From the NCBI GenBank assembly GCA_020431705.1, contig JAGQHQ010000007.1, positions 1 to 61,167 on the forward strand: 61,167 bases of DNA, written 5' to 3'. This DNA is from Candidatus Dependentiae bacterium. Its GTDB lineage: Bacteria; Babelota; Babeliae; Babelales; Vermiphilaceae. A program made the position numbers and the translations under genes. Below the pieces are notes generated by a model that saw only the letters and a list, made by a program, of their open reading frames with translations, ran no database searches and had not been told where the DNA came from. Below, one piece after another: positions 733 through 6,083 of the stretch (the stretch's first letter is position 1; each line of letters begins with the position of its first letter).

Positions 733-999
733 ATGTCACTATTACTAAACAATATTCTTGCTCTATCTATAGGATTGTTCTCAGGTTTTTTATATGCTGT
801 ACTTTTTTTATTTCAAAAACGTACAACTATGATTGCATCAGTATTATTTACAAGTATTCGCTTGATAAGTTTATCCGCATTATGGTGGTATCTATTGCAG
901 CACACACAAATACCTCTTATACTGATGATATTATTTTTCTTACCAACATTTTGGGTAACTGTTTCTTGGTATAGGGGAATTGCATATGGAAGGTCTTGA
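733..999 (+). CDS. Small two- or three-helix membrane protein, AtpR-like ATP synthase accessory subunit
   Basis: An 88-residue hydrophobic protein directly upstream of ATP synthase subunit a, overlapping it by 14 bp. Helices lie at about residues 5-27, 33-54 and 60-78. Arginines at positions 30 and 43 sit at or within the second helix, in the pattern of AtpR from N-type ATPases, where a membrane Arg is thought to aid assembly of c subunits that carry two carboxylates. The c subunit here does have an extra Glu (E28) in its first hairpin, which supports the assignment. AtpI, the usual protein at this locus, is the alternative. No clear Shine-Dalgarno sequence precedes the ATG. Confidence 0.55.
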   Translation: MSLLLNNILALSIGLFSGFLYAVLFLFQKRTTMIASVLFTSIRLISLSALWWYLLQHTQIPLILMILFFLPTFWVTVSWYRGIAYGRS

Positions 1000-1755: not shown

Positions 1756-2727
1756 ATGGCAGAGCTTGCAGAATTACTGCATTATTTAACGGTTGCATTA
1801 GCAGTCGCAGTCAGCTCAATTGGAGCTGGAATCGGTGAGGGATTGGCAAGTCATGCCGCAATAAAAGCAATTAACAAACAACCTGGCGCGCGAAGTGATA
1901 TTTCCAAAACAATGATTTTGGGAACTGCACTCATTGAAACTGCCGCAATTATGGGATTACTTATTTCCGCAATTATGTTGTGGGGCTCAGAAAGCATTGA
2001 ACGTACCACATACACAGGTATTGCTACATTGGGCATTGCACTTGCTATTTGTATCTCTGGGTTTGTCATTGGTATTGTTTCTGCATTTCCTGCACAACAA
2101 GCATGTTTAGCAATTGCACGACAACCATTCTTTGCTCAAAAAATTGTTCGCTTTATGCTTATCACACAATCAATTATTCAAACACCAATTGTATTTAGTT
2201 TTATTATCGCGATGCTCATAAAAGCGCAACTTACAACTATTGATAGCCTTGCTGATAGTTTTCGGTTACTTGGTGCTGGTATATGTATTGGTTTTGGTAG
2301 CATTGGCCCTTCAATTGGTCTCGCACAGTTTGCACGAACGGCATGCTCTGGGCTTGGTATAAATCGCGATGCATACAACAAGTTGCTTCCTTTCACTTTT
2401 TTGAGTGAAGCAATTATTGAAACACCTATTATCTTTGCATTGGTTGTGTCTATTTTACTACTAGTTACCGGTATACCAAATGGGAATCTACTAGTTGGTA
2501 TCGCTATGCTTTTTGCTGGTTTTTGTACAGGATTTGGTACTATCGGCGCTGGTATTAGTTCCGGGAAAACATCTTCTGCCGCATGCCACCAAATTGCACT
2601 TGCTCCAGAAAAGTATTCATTACTTGCACGTGTAAGTATGTTTAGCCAAGGTTTGATTGATACATGTGCAATTTATGCATTGCTCATATCTTTACTTTTA
2701 ATTATCACTAGTCGTTATATGGTTTAA
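1756..2727 (+). CDS. atpE: ATP synthase subunit c, fused four-hairpin form
   Basis: This is the rotor subunit of Fo. Ordinary F-type c subunits are single hairpins of about 80 residues; this 323-residue protein contains four in tandem (about 10-76, 87-157, 167-237, 245-318), giving eight transmembrane helices. The carboxylate position in the second helix of each reads E61 (ALIETAA), Q142 (SIIQTPI), E222 (AIIETPI) and D302 (GLIDTCA), so the second hairpin lacks the ion-binding acid. A Thr follows each of these residues, as in Na+-binding c subunits. In hairpin 1, E28 (GAGIGEGLA) occupies the place of the Na+-liganding Gln, the two-carboxylate arrangement known in N-type ATPases. Multi-hairpin c subunits are known from V/A-type and a few F-type enzymes. 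Confidence 0.9.
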   Translation: MAELAELLHYLTVALAVAVSSIGAGIGEGLASHAAIKAINKQPGARSDISKTMILGTALIETAAIMGLLISAIMLWGSESIERTTYTGIATLGIALAICISGFVIGIVSAFPAQQACLAIARQPFFAQKIVRFMLITQSIIQTPIVFSFIIAMLIKAQLTTIDSLADSFRLLGAGICIGFGSIGPSIGLAQFARTACSGLGINRDAYNKLLPFTFLSEAIIETPIIFALVVSILLLVTGIPNGNLLVGIAMLFAGFCTGFGTIGAGISSGKTSSAACHQIALAPEKYSLLARVSMFSQGLIDTCAIYALLISLLLIITSRYMV

Positions 2728-2742
2728 AAAACATCTTGTAGT

Positions 2743-3936
2743 ATGAAGCATAAAAAAAAATTACACGTTTTGTATATCATCACCAAGTTAGAACTGGGTG
2801 GTGCACAAAAAGTATGTCTTAATCTGGCGAAAGGCTTAAAAAAGTTAGGACACGAACCACTATTGCTTTCTGGTCCAACTGGTCCACTAAAAGAGGAGGC
2901 AAAAACAATTTGCCAAACAATTTTTTTAAATGATCTGACACGAGAAATCAACTCATCATGTGTATTTTTTAAAGAATTCATTTGTTTTTTTACATTAGTT
3001 GGCACAATAAAAAAACTTAAAAAAAAATATCCTGATTTAATTATACATACACACAGCACAAAAGCTGGAATCCTTGGCCGATGGGCCGCCTTTTTTGCTA
3101 ATGTTAAAAAACGTATTCATACAGTGCATGGCTACGCATTCCATAAACACCAGCGTTGGTTTGTATGGCTACCCATTTATTTTTTGGAGTTGATTACAAG
3201 CTTTGTTACTACTCACTTTATATGCGTTTCTTCTGAAGATGTAAAAACAGGAATCAAACTATTTCCATACTTTACCCCTAAACATTCAATCATTCGCGCA
3301 GCAGTTGATCATAATACATTGTATATTCCTGCAACAAAAACCAATATTAATCCCGATACTGCACAAACATTTGTCTTTGGAACTATCTCTTGCTTTAAAC
3401 CACAAAAAAATCTAATTGATCTATTACGTGCTTTTGCATATGTATACCAAAAAGACAATCGTGCAAAACTAGAAATTATTGGCGATGGTGTGCAACGCAA
3501 ACACATAGAAATTTTCATCAAAACACACAACTTACATCAACAGATTATTCTTCATGGTTGGAAACAAAACATTACGCCCATTATGCTAACCTGGCATGCA
3601 TTTGTCCTCAGCTCTCTGTGGGAAGGATTACCATGTGCAGTAGTCGAAGCGCGCTTGCTTAAGTTACCGGTTCTTGCATATAACACTGGTGGGATCAAAG
3701 ATATTATTGAAAATGGCAAGAATGGTTTTTTATATCCACAAAAAAAGTGGAAACAACTTGCCAATGGCATGTTACAACTTATGAATAATAAAAAATTATA
3801 CTCAAAATTATACTACAATAAAGACAATTTAATTCAATTTGACACTGATGTCATGATACAAGAACATATACAATTATATCAAACAGGTTATATAAGAATA
3901 GATACCCTTACAGATAAAAAAAGGAATAATGTATGA
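2743..3936 (+). CDS. GT4-family glycosyltransferase
   Basis: A GT-B fold retaining glycosyltransferase of 397 residues, probably building a surface polysaccharide or glycolipid on the cytoplasmic face of the membrane. The N-terminal Rossmann domain begins LYIITKLELGGAQKV, typical of group 1 transferases. The nucleotide-sugar domain carries the EX7E-type motif WEGLPCAVVEA and then YNTGGIKDIIENGKNGFL. A hydrophobic stretch near residues 145-160 may contact the membrane. The donor and acceptor sugars cannot be told from sequence. It starts 15 bp after the c-subunit gene, and its stop overlaps the next gene's start in an ATGA arrangement, so these genes may be co-transcribed. Confidence 0.85.
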   Translation: MKHKKKLHVLYIITKLELGGAQKVCLNLAKGLKKLGHEPLLLSGPTGPLKEEAKTICQTIFLNDLTREINSSCVFFKEFICFFTLVGTIKKLKKKYPDLIIHTHSTKAGILGRWAAFFANVKKRIHTVHGYAFHKHQRWFVWLPIYFLELITSFVTTHFICVSSEDVKTGIKLFPYFTPKHSIIRAAVDHNTLYIPATKTNINPDTAQTFVFGTISCFKPQKNLIDLLRAFAYVYQKDNRAKLEIIGDGVQRKHIEIFIKTHNLHQQIILHGWKQNITPIMLTWHAFVLSSLWEGLPCAVVEARLLKLPVLAYNTGGIKDIIENGKNGFLYPQKKWKQLANGMLQLMNNKKLYSKLYYNKDNLIQFDTDVMIQEHIQLYQTGYIRIDTLTDKKRNNV

Positions 3937-6083
3937 AAGTAGTTAGTACAAAAAAATGGTTATCAGTCATATGTATAATATTATGCGGAATAAGTTTTAT
4001 TCTTACGCTACTCTTCACGTATTCATACTGGAAAACACAATCAGCAATTTTGCACTTTACTCGACAAGAAGCACACGAAAAAACCGAGCAAGCAGCAAAA
4101 CACTTGGATAGTTTTATTAATATACTACAAGTAATGGTTACTACGCTCACAAAAAAACTTGAGAAAAACAATATTAAAAAAAGCACAATTATTGAACAAT
4201 TGCGAGAAAAACCAGTAGAAGTTACCGGGTTTGGAGTCGCCTTCACATCTCAAGATAGTGATGAAAAAAAATCTCATTACGTTGTAGAATATGAAGATAA
4301 ACAACAACTTATACAACTAGAAAAATCTCACTTCGCTCAAGCTACAAAAGACGGAAAATATGATTATACACAAGAAATATGGTATAAAAAAGCACTAAAA
4401 GGACAATCCGGTTTCTTGGGGCCAATTAATGATCCGGTTACCAAACAACCGGTCATTTTTTTTTACAAACCATTTTTTAATGGTGATATCATTGCTGGTG
4501 TTGTATTTGCAACACAATCGGTTGCTCACCTTAAACACGTACTTTCAACATTATATCTTGGGCAAGCTGGCTATTGGATTGTAACAGACAAAGATGGCAC
4601 AGTACTTATTCATCCAACAACCAGTTTAATACAGACTAAAGAAAATATAATTAACAAGACACATATGCAACAGAATAATGCGATAATAACTCTTTTGTCC
4701 AAAGATGAAAATAGAACAAGAAGTGTTTTATACAAAAATCCTAAAACTAACAATGATGCCTGGCTTTCAGTTGCAGAAACATCCACAACACCTTTAAAAA
4801 TCATATCAGTTTTTGATATCTATCAAGTTTTTGTAAATAATGATTTTGTTCGCCACCAATTGATTCACATTGTTCTGGCACTTTTGTGCGCGTTTCTGTT
4901 TTGTATAGCTTTTTTCATTTCTCGATCACAACTTAATGTGTCACTTTTGTGGACTTTTTCTGCCGTAACAGCGATCATACTTGCGTTAACCGTTGGCACA
5001 CTATGGGCAATCACTGCTGCATATCCTGATTACAAAGAAAACATAGTACCTGTGTACAACAAGATTAGTCTATATCAATTTTTAGACAAAATAACTAACG
5101 CAAAACAAGATATCATCCCTGCAGAACCCTCACAAAGCTTAGACTATTATTTGCGCTATCGATACAAAAAGGGAAAATACATACCAACAGGATTACTGAT
5201 TCACGATATTGATTTTATTTCTAAAGATCAAATTGCATTTGTTGGTATTGTATGGCAGCGCTATTTTGACGGAATTCATGACGATATTTCTCGTGGTTTT
5301 ATTTTTCAACAACTTTCTGGTAAACCAGACATTGTCGAGTTAAGCAGAACAAAAGAGGGTAAACGAGAAACAATTGTATGGTTAGTACACGCAAAATTAA
5401 ATCAAGTTATGACGTATTACAATTTTCCATTTGACGTAAAAGATTTACACATACAACTTTCTCACAAAGATTTTGATAAAAATATTATTCTCGTTCCAGA
5501 CTTAGATGCATACGCTATTCTAAATGCTGCAGCACTGCCAGGTATAAGTAGCGATGCACATTTAAGTGGCTGGCAACTGAGTGGTAGCTATTTTGGTTAC
5601 AAAATTGTTGATTATCAATCTAATTTTGGAATGTACGCATACGGCCCATTTGGCATAACTAATCAAGTTGATAAGTCTCAAGTACCAGAATTACACTTTG
5701 CTATTGCCGCTAAACGAAATTTATTTGAAACACTGACTACACATGTTATTGTCCTGCTCGCTATTGCTTTTTTATTATTTGTTCTTTTTTTAACCTATCA
5801 AAAACACGATGTTGGAGGCGCATTTACTACAATACTTTTTAGCACCATTGTTGCACAACGTTATTTTAAATCACATATCCCATCAGACGAATTTGTATAC
5901 TTTGAGTGGTTTCATTTTATTATGTATATCGCAATTGTATTTGTTATGACCGTTGTACTATTAGATTTTTTCAAATTCAATTTTTGGTTCATTCAATATA
6001 AAAAAAATGTAATCAGCCTAATCCTTTATTGGCCATGTCTGCTAATGGGAATTTTATTAGTTTCCATTATATACCTTTACTAG
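3933..6083 (+). CDS. Cache-domain sensor fused to a pentameric ligand-gated ion channel (pLGIC)-like domain
   Basis: A 716-residue membrane protein. After a first helix (about 12-30) comes an extracytoplasmic double-Cache-like region (about 40-300, with GFLGPINDPVT and the GYWIVTDKDGTVLIHP strand pair). Two helices follow (about 311-330 and 339-361). The second half reads as a pLGIC: an extracellular beta domain (about 375-592) carries FPFDVKDLHIQL at 498-509, the counterpart of the YPFDSQTLHIYL signature in GLIC, then LSGWQLS (GLIC: LTGWDIE) and four C-terminal helices (about 601-621, 629-645, 660-681, 692-715). The topology is consistent: both Cache and channel ectodomains and the C-terminus lie outside. 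Function as a ligand-gated ion channel is inferred. Translation is coupled to the upstream gene by a 4-bp overlap. Confidence 0.72.
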   Translation: MKVVSTKKWLSVICIILCGISFILTLLFTYSYWKTQSAILHFTRQEAHEKTEQAAKHLDSFINILQVMVTTLTKKLEKNNIKKSTIIEQLREKPVEVTGFGVAFTSQDSDEKKSHYVVEYEDKQQLIQLEKSHFAQATKDGKYDYTQEIWYKKALKGQSGFLGPINDPVTKQPVIFFYKPFFNGDIIAGVVFATQSVAHLKHVLSTLYLGQAGYWIVTDKDGTVLIHPTTSLIQTKENIINKTHMQQNNAIITLLSKDENRTRSVLYKNPKTNNDAWLSVAETSTTPLKIISVFDIYQVFVNNDFVRHQLIHIVLALLCAFLFCIAFFISRSQLNVSLLWTFSAVTAIILALTVGTLWAITAAYPDYKENIVPVYNKISLYQFLDKITNAKQDIIPAEPSQSLDYYLRYRYKKGKYIPTGLLIHDIDFISKDQIAFVGIVWQRYFDGIHDDISRGFIFQQLSGKPDIVELSRTKEGKRETIVWLVHAKLNQVMTYYNFPFDVKDLHIQLSHKDFDKNIILVPDLDAYAILNAAALPGISSDAHLSGWQLSGSYFGYKIVDYQSNFGMYAYGPFGITNQVDKSQVPELHFAIAAKRNLFETLTTHVIVLLAIAFLLFVLFLTYQKHDVGGAFTTILFSTIVAQRYFKSHIPSDEFVYFEWFHFIMYIAIVFVMTVVLLDFFKFNFWFIQYKKNVISLILYWPCLLMGILLVSIIYLY

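Follow-up and report, generated by a model that had tools for sequence, protein, structure and literature searches.

The four-hairpin c subunit and its locus

The window analysed here is a stretch of 61,167 nucleotides from a Candidatus Dependentiae bacterium (assembly GCA_020431705.1, contig JAGQHQ010000007.1, positions 1 to 61,167 of the forward strand). Dependentiae are bacteria living inside protists. At positions 1756-2727, on the plus strand, the window carries a single ATG-started open reading frame (ORF) of 323 amino acids with no internal stop codon, which codes for a rotor c subunit of an F-type ATP synthase made of four tandem hairpins. We call this protein c4. The Pfam profile of c-type hairpins, PF00137 (ATP-synt_C), has four distinct matches within it (E 2.3e-35), and every hairpin taken alone scores above the cut-off, which by this profile places c4 among the F-type ATP synthase c subunits. 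Pairwise alignment scores of the hairpins exceed those of shuffled sequences by 7 to 18 standard deviations. The AlphaFold2 model, built with 36 homologues, shows eight membrane helices arranged in four hairpins, with a predicted local distance difference test score of 96.3 and a predicted template modelling score of 0.92. The closest PDB match by sequence profile is 4bem_J, the two-hairpin c1 subunit of Acetobacterium woodii (E 3.4e-23), and the same chain ranks first in a Foldseek search with the model.

Hairpin 1 (residues 2-77, positions 1759-1986) has a K-Q-P loop, the glutamate E28 (codon 1837-1839) in its first transmembrane helix (TM1), and the ion-site carboxylate E61 (codon 1936-1938), followed by T62, in its second (TM2). 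In hairpin 2 (residues 85-161, positions 2008-2238) the carboxylate is lost, the position being occupied by Q142 (codon 2179-2181), and the loop is a canonical RQP (R122, Q123, P124). Hairpin 3 (residues 165-237, positions 2248-2466) harbours E222-T223, with the codon of the ion-site carboxylate E222 at 2419-2421, and a further membrane carboxylate, E218, one helical turn earlier. Hairpin 4 (residues 245-321, positions 2488-2718) has D302-T303, with the codon of the site residue D302 at 2659-2661, and Y307. The four TM2 residues E61, Q142, E222 and D302 fall in register in the alignment of the hairpins. A first-pass annotation made from the DNA sequence had described the four hairpins with these residues and with E28 in the first; all of them are as stated there, but E218 had been overlooked.

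Two genes precede that of c4 on the same strand. The nearer one codes for subunit a of the F-type enzyme (986-1729; PF00119, E 2.3e-36), its ORF being listed from a TTG at 980 with an ATG at 986. Before it lies the gene of a small membrane protein (733-999, plus strand) that we designate AtpI-like by its place (ATP synthase I chain, a probable helper in c-ring assembly). Our copy has no Pfam match, and two relatives gave sub-threshold matches to PF03899 (E 0.0035 and 0.024). Of 36 relatives, 31 have an ORF at this position, directly ahead of subunit a.

Conservation of c4 in the phylum

We collected 101 genomes of the phylum (Ca. Dependentiae/Babeliales; one order, 19 families and 77 genera), most of them metagenome bins, and searched gene content in detail in 36 genomes, one per genus. 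An intact c4 gene was found in 96 of the 101, several of which are single-contig assemblies, without a stop codon in any. The five genomes devoid of it are 53-78% complete. Among 36 aligned proteins, identity to our copy ranges from 31 to 64%. A comparison with the c genes of relatives, proposed in the first-pass annotation, found a four-hairpin gene in all 96 genomes and a single-hairpin c gene at this locus in none. In 94 of the 96, c4 is directly preceded by the a gene, in the same orientation; for the two exceptions, the stretch read runs to the contig end and showed no a gene. The essential Arg of subunit a, in a S/A-F/L-RLFGN context, is present in 94 of 94 genomes.

Genome contigs were also scanned with two peptide patterns taken from close relatives, which yielded only phylum loci or records with uninformative titles and is no proof of absence elsewhere; matching titles mostly read Candidatus Dependentiae, Babeliales or candidate division TM6. 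Our literature search found no description of a four-hairpin F-type c subunit or of a Dependentiae ATP synthase rotor, subscription papers on TM6 being outside its scope.

A second c gene and a single F1Fo gene set

The first-pass annotation suggested a search for the remaining ATPase genes, which revealed them together with a second c gene that it had not mentioned. In our genome (1.1 Mb in 52 contigs), an ordinary single-hairpin c gene is found on contig C12 (stretch L035, 3985-4233), followed by two presumed b-type genes and those of delta and alpha. Single-hairpin c subunits of about 82-130 amino acids are encoded in all 36 genera checked, and in all 33 genomes whose stretch read includes the alpha gene, this gene has the same orientation and lies 1.3-1.6 kb downstream. 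Over the whole phylum sample, 92 of 101 genomes have two c-type matches.

The F1Fo genes of our bacterium are split over four loci, namely AtpI-like/a/c4 in the window, single c/two b-type/delta/alpha on C12, beta/epsilon on C26 and gamma on C3. According to Pfam, F-type a, alpha, beta, gamma, delta (PF00213) and epsilon (PF02823) are all present alongside c4. The two presumed b-type stator subunits (L035, 4237-5143) have no meaningful Pfam match and are named by their place; the stator is highly diverged.

Throughout the 36 genera we found one gene per genome for subunit a (PF00119), which in our genome is the window copy, at most one for gamma (PF00231), and one each for alpha and beta where found (genome G002 has neither, and some bins lack one of them). 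Matches to PF00006 in our genome are alpha, beta and a weak third one, a putative Rho; V/A stator genes were not searched for. Since there are two c genes but a single a, alpha and beta and at most one gamma, the two c proteins must have one a subunit and one F1 in common. This gene content rules out two complete ATPases, one per c type.

Ion sites of the two c proteins

The TM2 site patterns of the 96 c4 proteins are mostly EQED (44), EEEE (21), EQEE (13) and EMED (7), others being rarer. Position 61 in hairpin 1 is a carboxylate in all of them, with Q42 in 94. At position 142, 72 proteins have a non-carboxylate residue (Q in 62, M in 7, V in 2 and G in 1) and 24 have E. Position 222 is E in 91 proteins, and position 302 is D or E in 95, with Y307 in 91. 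The proposal of a fused c subunit with a missing carboxylate and non-equivalent sites is supported. One turn ahead of the site, hairpins 2 to 4 have Q or E in most genomes (positions 138, 218 and 298), and position 218 does so in 76 of the 96.

The single c proteins of the 36 genera carry a Na+ signature, with Q29 in 35, E62 in 35 and D in the remaining one, and S/T63 in 34; Y67 is also part of it. They match the Na+ motif as defined in the literature (PMC7911925). As the Na+ ligands (TM1 Gln and TM2 Glu-Ser/Thr) are complete in single c, the coupling ion is probably Na+. Hairpin 1 of c4 has a TM1 Q or E, position 28 being Q in 55 and E in 17 of the 96 proteins, hence one or the other at the Gln32 equivalent in 72. 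In the other hairpins, the residue equivalent to the TM1 Gln is S109 in hairpin 2, L or Q in hairpin 3 and mostly S in hairpin 4.

Our E28 occupies the position of Gln32 in Ilyobacter and of Glu32 in Fusobacterium nucleatum, whose ring harbours a two-carboxylate Na+ motif (Glu32, Glu65, Ser/Thr66, Tyr70). Hairpin 1 of c4 has E28, E61 and T62 at the first three positions and M66 in place of the tyrosine. Unlike the single-hairpin, homomeric ring of F. nucleatum, c4 has the two carboxylates in hairpin 1 only. The second carboxylate of the F. nucleatum ring, Glu32, remains protonated and does not provide another site of transport (PMC3692424). By analogy, and given the mixture of Q and E among relatives, it is improbable that E28 adds a transport site.

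Phylogeny of the hairpin-2 site and of the fusion

In an unrooted tree of c4 built without the site columns, lack of the hairpin-2 carboxylate marks one deep clade of 72 genomes, separated from the other 24, most of which keep the glutamate (Shimodaira-Hasegawa-like approximate likelihood ratio test support of 99). Three changes account for the distribution of this state, one at the deep split and one each in G033 and G013. Although the tree is unrooted, loss of a site is the likelier direction at the deep split. Another residue follows the same split: Q189, in TM1 of hairpin 3 (corresponding codon of our gene at window position 2320), is found in 23 of 24 genomes of one clade vs 4 of 72 of the other. 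The E142 and Q189 losses thus fall on the same branch, which looks like the dismantling of one inter-hairpin site, but this is a single event and not significant. We rejected a coupled loss, as G013 and G033 break the pattern and independent pairs show no association.

A second tree was computed with the hairpins of 18 genomes and reference c subunits, on few columns and with some long branches. Its six groups (H1, H2, H3, H4, single c and references) need six changes, the minimum being five. H1, H2 and H4 each form one group, while the branching order among the hairpins is unsettled. Judged from these groupings, the four-fold fusion is older than the radiation of the phylum. Its origin is, on the same tree, separate from the duplication in A. 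woodii, because the c1 hairpins of the latter cluster with their own c2 and with the c subunits of Ilyobacter and Fusobacterium, and with no c4 hairpin.

Comparison with known rotors

The closest known counterpart is the hybrid Na+ F1Fo of A. woodii and Clostridium aceticum (PDB 4bem), in which a two-hairpin c1 is accompanied by single c2/c3. As in Dependentiae, one F1Fo enzyme has both fused and single c genes, the single c carries the Na+ motif, and one fused hairpin has lost its carboxylate by replacement of E with Q before T. This QT pair recurs in hairpin 2 of our c4, and the two hairpins of the fused c of C. aceticum read Q..ET and Q..QT. The two kinds differ in that c4 has four hairpins rather than two and usually three live sites, its operons are split, and it is fixed across a phylum. 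Furthermore, c1 is seen in 4bem within one ring together with single c2, whereas the Dependentiae enzyme is known from its genes; the apparent kinship lies in the set of genes and in the motif.

The V-type K subunits (Enterococcus NtpK, eukaryotic c and c'') likewise have fused hairpins, a dead site and a similar fold. They consist of two hairpins, in contrast with the four of c4, and the a, alpha, beta, gamma, delta and epsilon subunits of Dependentiae are of the F type. More than two hairpins per chain are otherwise found in archaeal c subunits, three in Methanocaldococcus and thirteen in Methanopyrus (PMC2359735). Those proteins belong to the archaeal A/V type, and the Na+ ligands are present in all 13 hairpins of Methanopyrus, unlike in c4.

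Architecture of the rotor

Gene content, conservation and site pattern are established, as is the four-hairpin fold as a prediction; co-assembly, stoichiometry, ion and direction are inferred. We favour, with some reserve, the reading that c4 represents the long c subunit in a hybrid rotor of the F type and sits with single c subunits in one ring. Both c types are strongly conserved and keep their carboxylates, so that both must work with the same a subunit. Three points favour the hybrid ring: the two genes are retained throughout, each has kept its ion sites, and the sole solved enzyme with two c types mixes them. The ring would be closed by one c4, or a small fixed number, and several single-hairpin c subunits of the Na+ type. 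On passing the a subunit, hairpins 1, 3 and 4 and each single c would load an ion and hairpin 2 none. If a ring of N hairpins contains a single c4, each turn would transport N-1 ions in the EQED clade and N ions in the EEEE one, as compared with three ions per four hairpins in a pure c4 ring.

Several observations weigh against the hybrid ring. The shared ring is read from genes, and those of c4 and single c are in different operons. In our protein, hairpins 3 and 4 are devoid of the TM1 glutamine (L189 and S269), leaving Na+ binding there unproven. Finally, a second canonical site residue is missing in some genomes, such as G065 with D/E/S/G.

An alternative that overlaps with the hybrid ring, and is compatible with it, is that c4 serves mainly as a docking or assembly sector. 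It would nucleate the ring with AtpI and a, its RQP loop would fix gamma/epsilon, and single c would do most of the transport. In other F-type enzymes, contact with the central stalk is made through the R-Q-P motif of the c loop. The loop of single c reads K-Y-P (34, 26 and 34 of 36), whereas c4 hairpin 2 has RQP (92, 88 and 95 of 96) and hairpin 1 has QP; the hairpin with the lost site thus has the best loop. Nevertheless, three of the four c4 carboxylates are nearly invariant, indicating that c4 also transports ions, and the loop differences are merely suggestive. As an account of the main role of c4, docking appears rather unlikely.

Similarly doubtful is a pair of alternative homomeric rings on the same F1 and a, one of single c with a high ion/ATP ratio and the other of c4 only, switched between life stages. 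Three c4, for instance, would give 12 hairpins and 9 sites. Location of c4 beside a and of single c in another operon would allow separate expression, and ring sizes of 8, 12 or 16 hairpins would be divisible by four. However, A. woodii, the sole structurally characterized enzyme with both kinds of c, has them in one ring, both genes are retained in every genus, and we know of no case in bacteria of rings of different sizes being swapped on one a subunit.

A working ring of c4 only, as assumed in the first-pass annotation, with single c as a relic, an assembly seed or a part of another system, is markedly less probable. This reading agrees with the adjacency of c4 and a wherever readable, and of the AtpI-like ORF in most genomes, and three sites per four hairpins would hold in 72 genomes. 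Yet single c heads the alpha operon in all 36 genera with an ion site better kept than those of c4, unlike a relic, and the 24-genome clade mostly has four sites, so that no common ratio is kept. We therefore no longer took the homomeric c4 ring as the default once the second c gene turned up. If the rotor is mixed, as is probable with that gene present, 'three sites per four hairpins' would describe the c4 subunit and not the rotor, and the lowering of the ion/ATP ratio would be smaller. Lastly, an assembly or frameshift artefact can be dismissed: most relatives are metagenome bins, but the same intact frame with related site patterns recurs in 96 genomes.

Building on the hybrid ring, a bolder and quite tentative extension is a rotor that is asymmetric throughout the phylum. 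In it, an arc of four hairpins, one of them with a silent site, would carry the only canonical RQP and be set among KYP single c subunits. The arc would fix gamma/epsilon docking and impose a skipped or longer step in each turn, tuned for ATP-driven pumping in ATP parasites that live inside cells. Structures of hybrid rotors with silent sites are available for A. woodii only, and a few acetogens are predicted to have such rotors. The Dependentiae rotor would be a separately evolved, more extreme form that predates the radiation of the phylum and is kept in nearly every member. Our data suggest a permanently lopsided rotor across a phylum, apparently undescribed so far. With one deep clade mostly having the fourth site and the other lacking it, the phylum offers a natural experiment, in which the purpose of fused c subunits, the role of rotor symmetry and stalk docking, and the evolution of ion/ATP ratios in ATP importers become testable.

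Energetics and direction of the enzyme

The organism had been proposed to take ATP from its host. In agreement, ATP/ADP translocase genes were found in 34 of 36 genomes, ours having two such ORFs on contig C1. The further idea that site loss fits a supply of host ATP is weakened, as translocases are also present in the clade that mostly keeps the hairpin-2 site (G026, G029, G032 and G033). With translocases in both clades, a tie between site loss and ATP parasitism is unsupported, and because EEEE genomes also have translocases, ATP import alone does not explain the lost site.

In the genomes searched, with positive controls in known genomes, we found no membrane subunit of complex I, no NQR/Rnf (RnfD/E) and no intact COX1; a 66-position COX1 fragment is present in G029, and the sole complex I match in our genome is a mitochondrial contaminant. 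The latter is on contig C29 (L204, 1-5173; 27% G+C), where the nad1 reading frame contains four TGA codons. The same contig has frames similar to cox2 and cox3, as well as an ORF resembling eukaryotic ribosomal protein L13. This contig is eukaryotic contamination, possibly from the protist host.

In many bacteria, the C-terminal domain of epsilon inhibits ATP hydrolysis. Epsilon consists of the N-terminal domain only (79-97 amino acids) in all 31 genomes where it is readable (L207-L237; our copy at C26, L106 4400-4645), a truncation that would fit an enzyme free to hydrolyse ATP. A membrane pyrophosphatase gene is found in 33 of 36 genomes. The sequence of our copy (C4:68454-70370, L205) contains GNTTAAMGKG, which we take to indicate the K+-dependent type. 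By gene content, no other candidate primary ion pump seen here, the ATPase apart, is as widely shared.

The first-pass annotation favoured ATP-driven ion pumping over synthesis. Pumping is plausible, since no respiratory complexes were found and epsilon lacks its C-terminal domain. With import of host ATP and no respiratory chain seen, the enzyme would probably often act as an ATP-driven ion pump, beside the membrane pyrophosphatase. A point against this direction is that the nearly universal pyrophosphatase could itself energise the membrane, and the enzyme may also synthesise ATP.

A channel-like protein in the window

Elsewhere in the window, positions 3933-6083 code for a 716-residue membrane protein that includes a dCache-like sensor domain. 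The C-terminal half of the protein resembles a pentameric ligand-gated ion channel, with a FPFDVKDL motif and four membrane helices. The sole PDB match of this half is a proton-gated channel chimera (E 0.74), and its reading as a channel is unproven.
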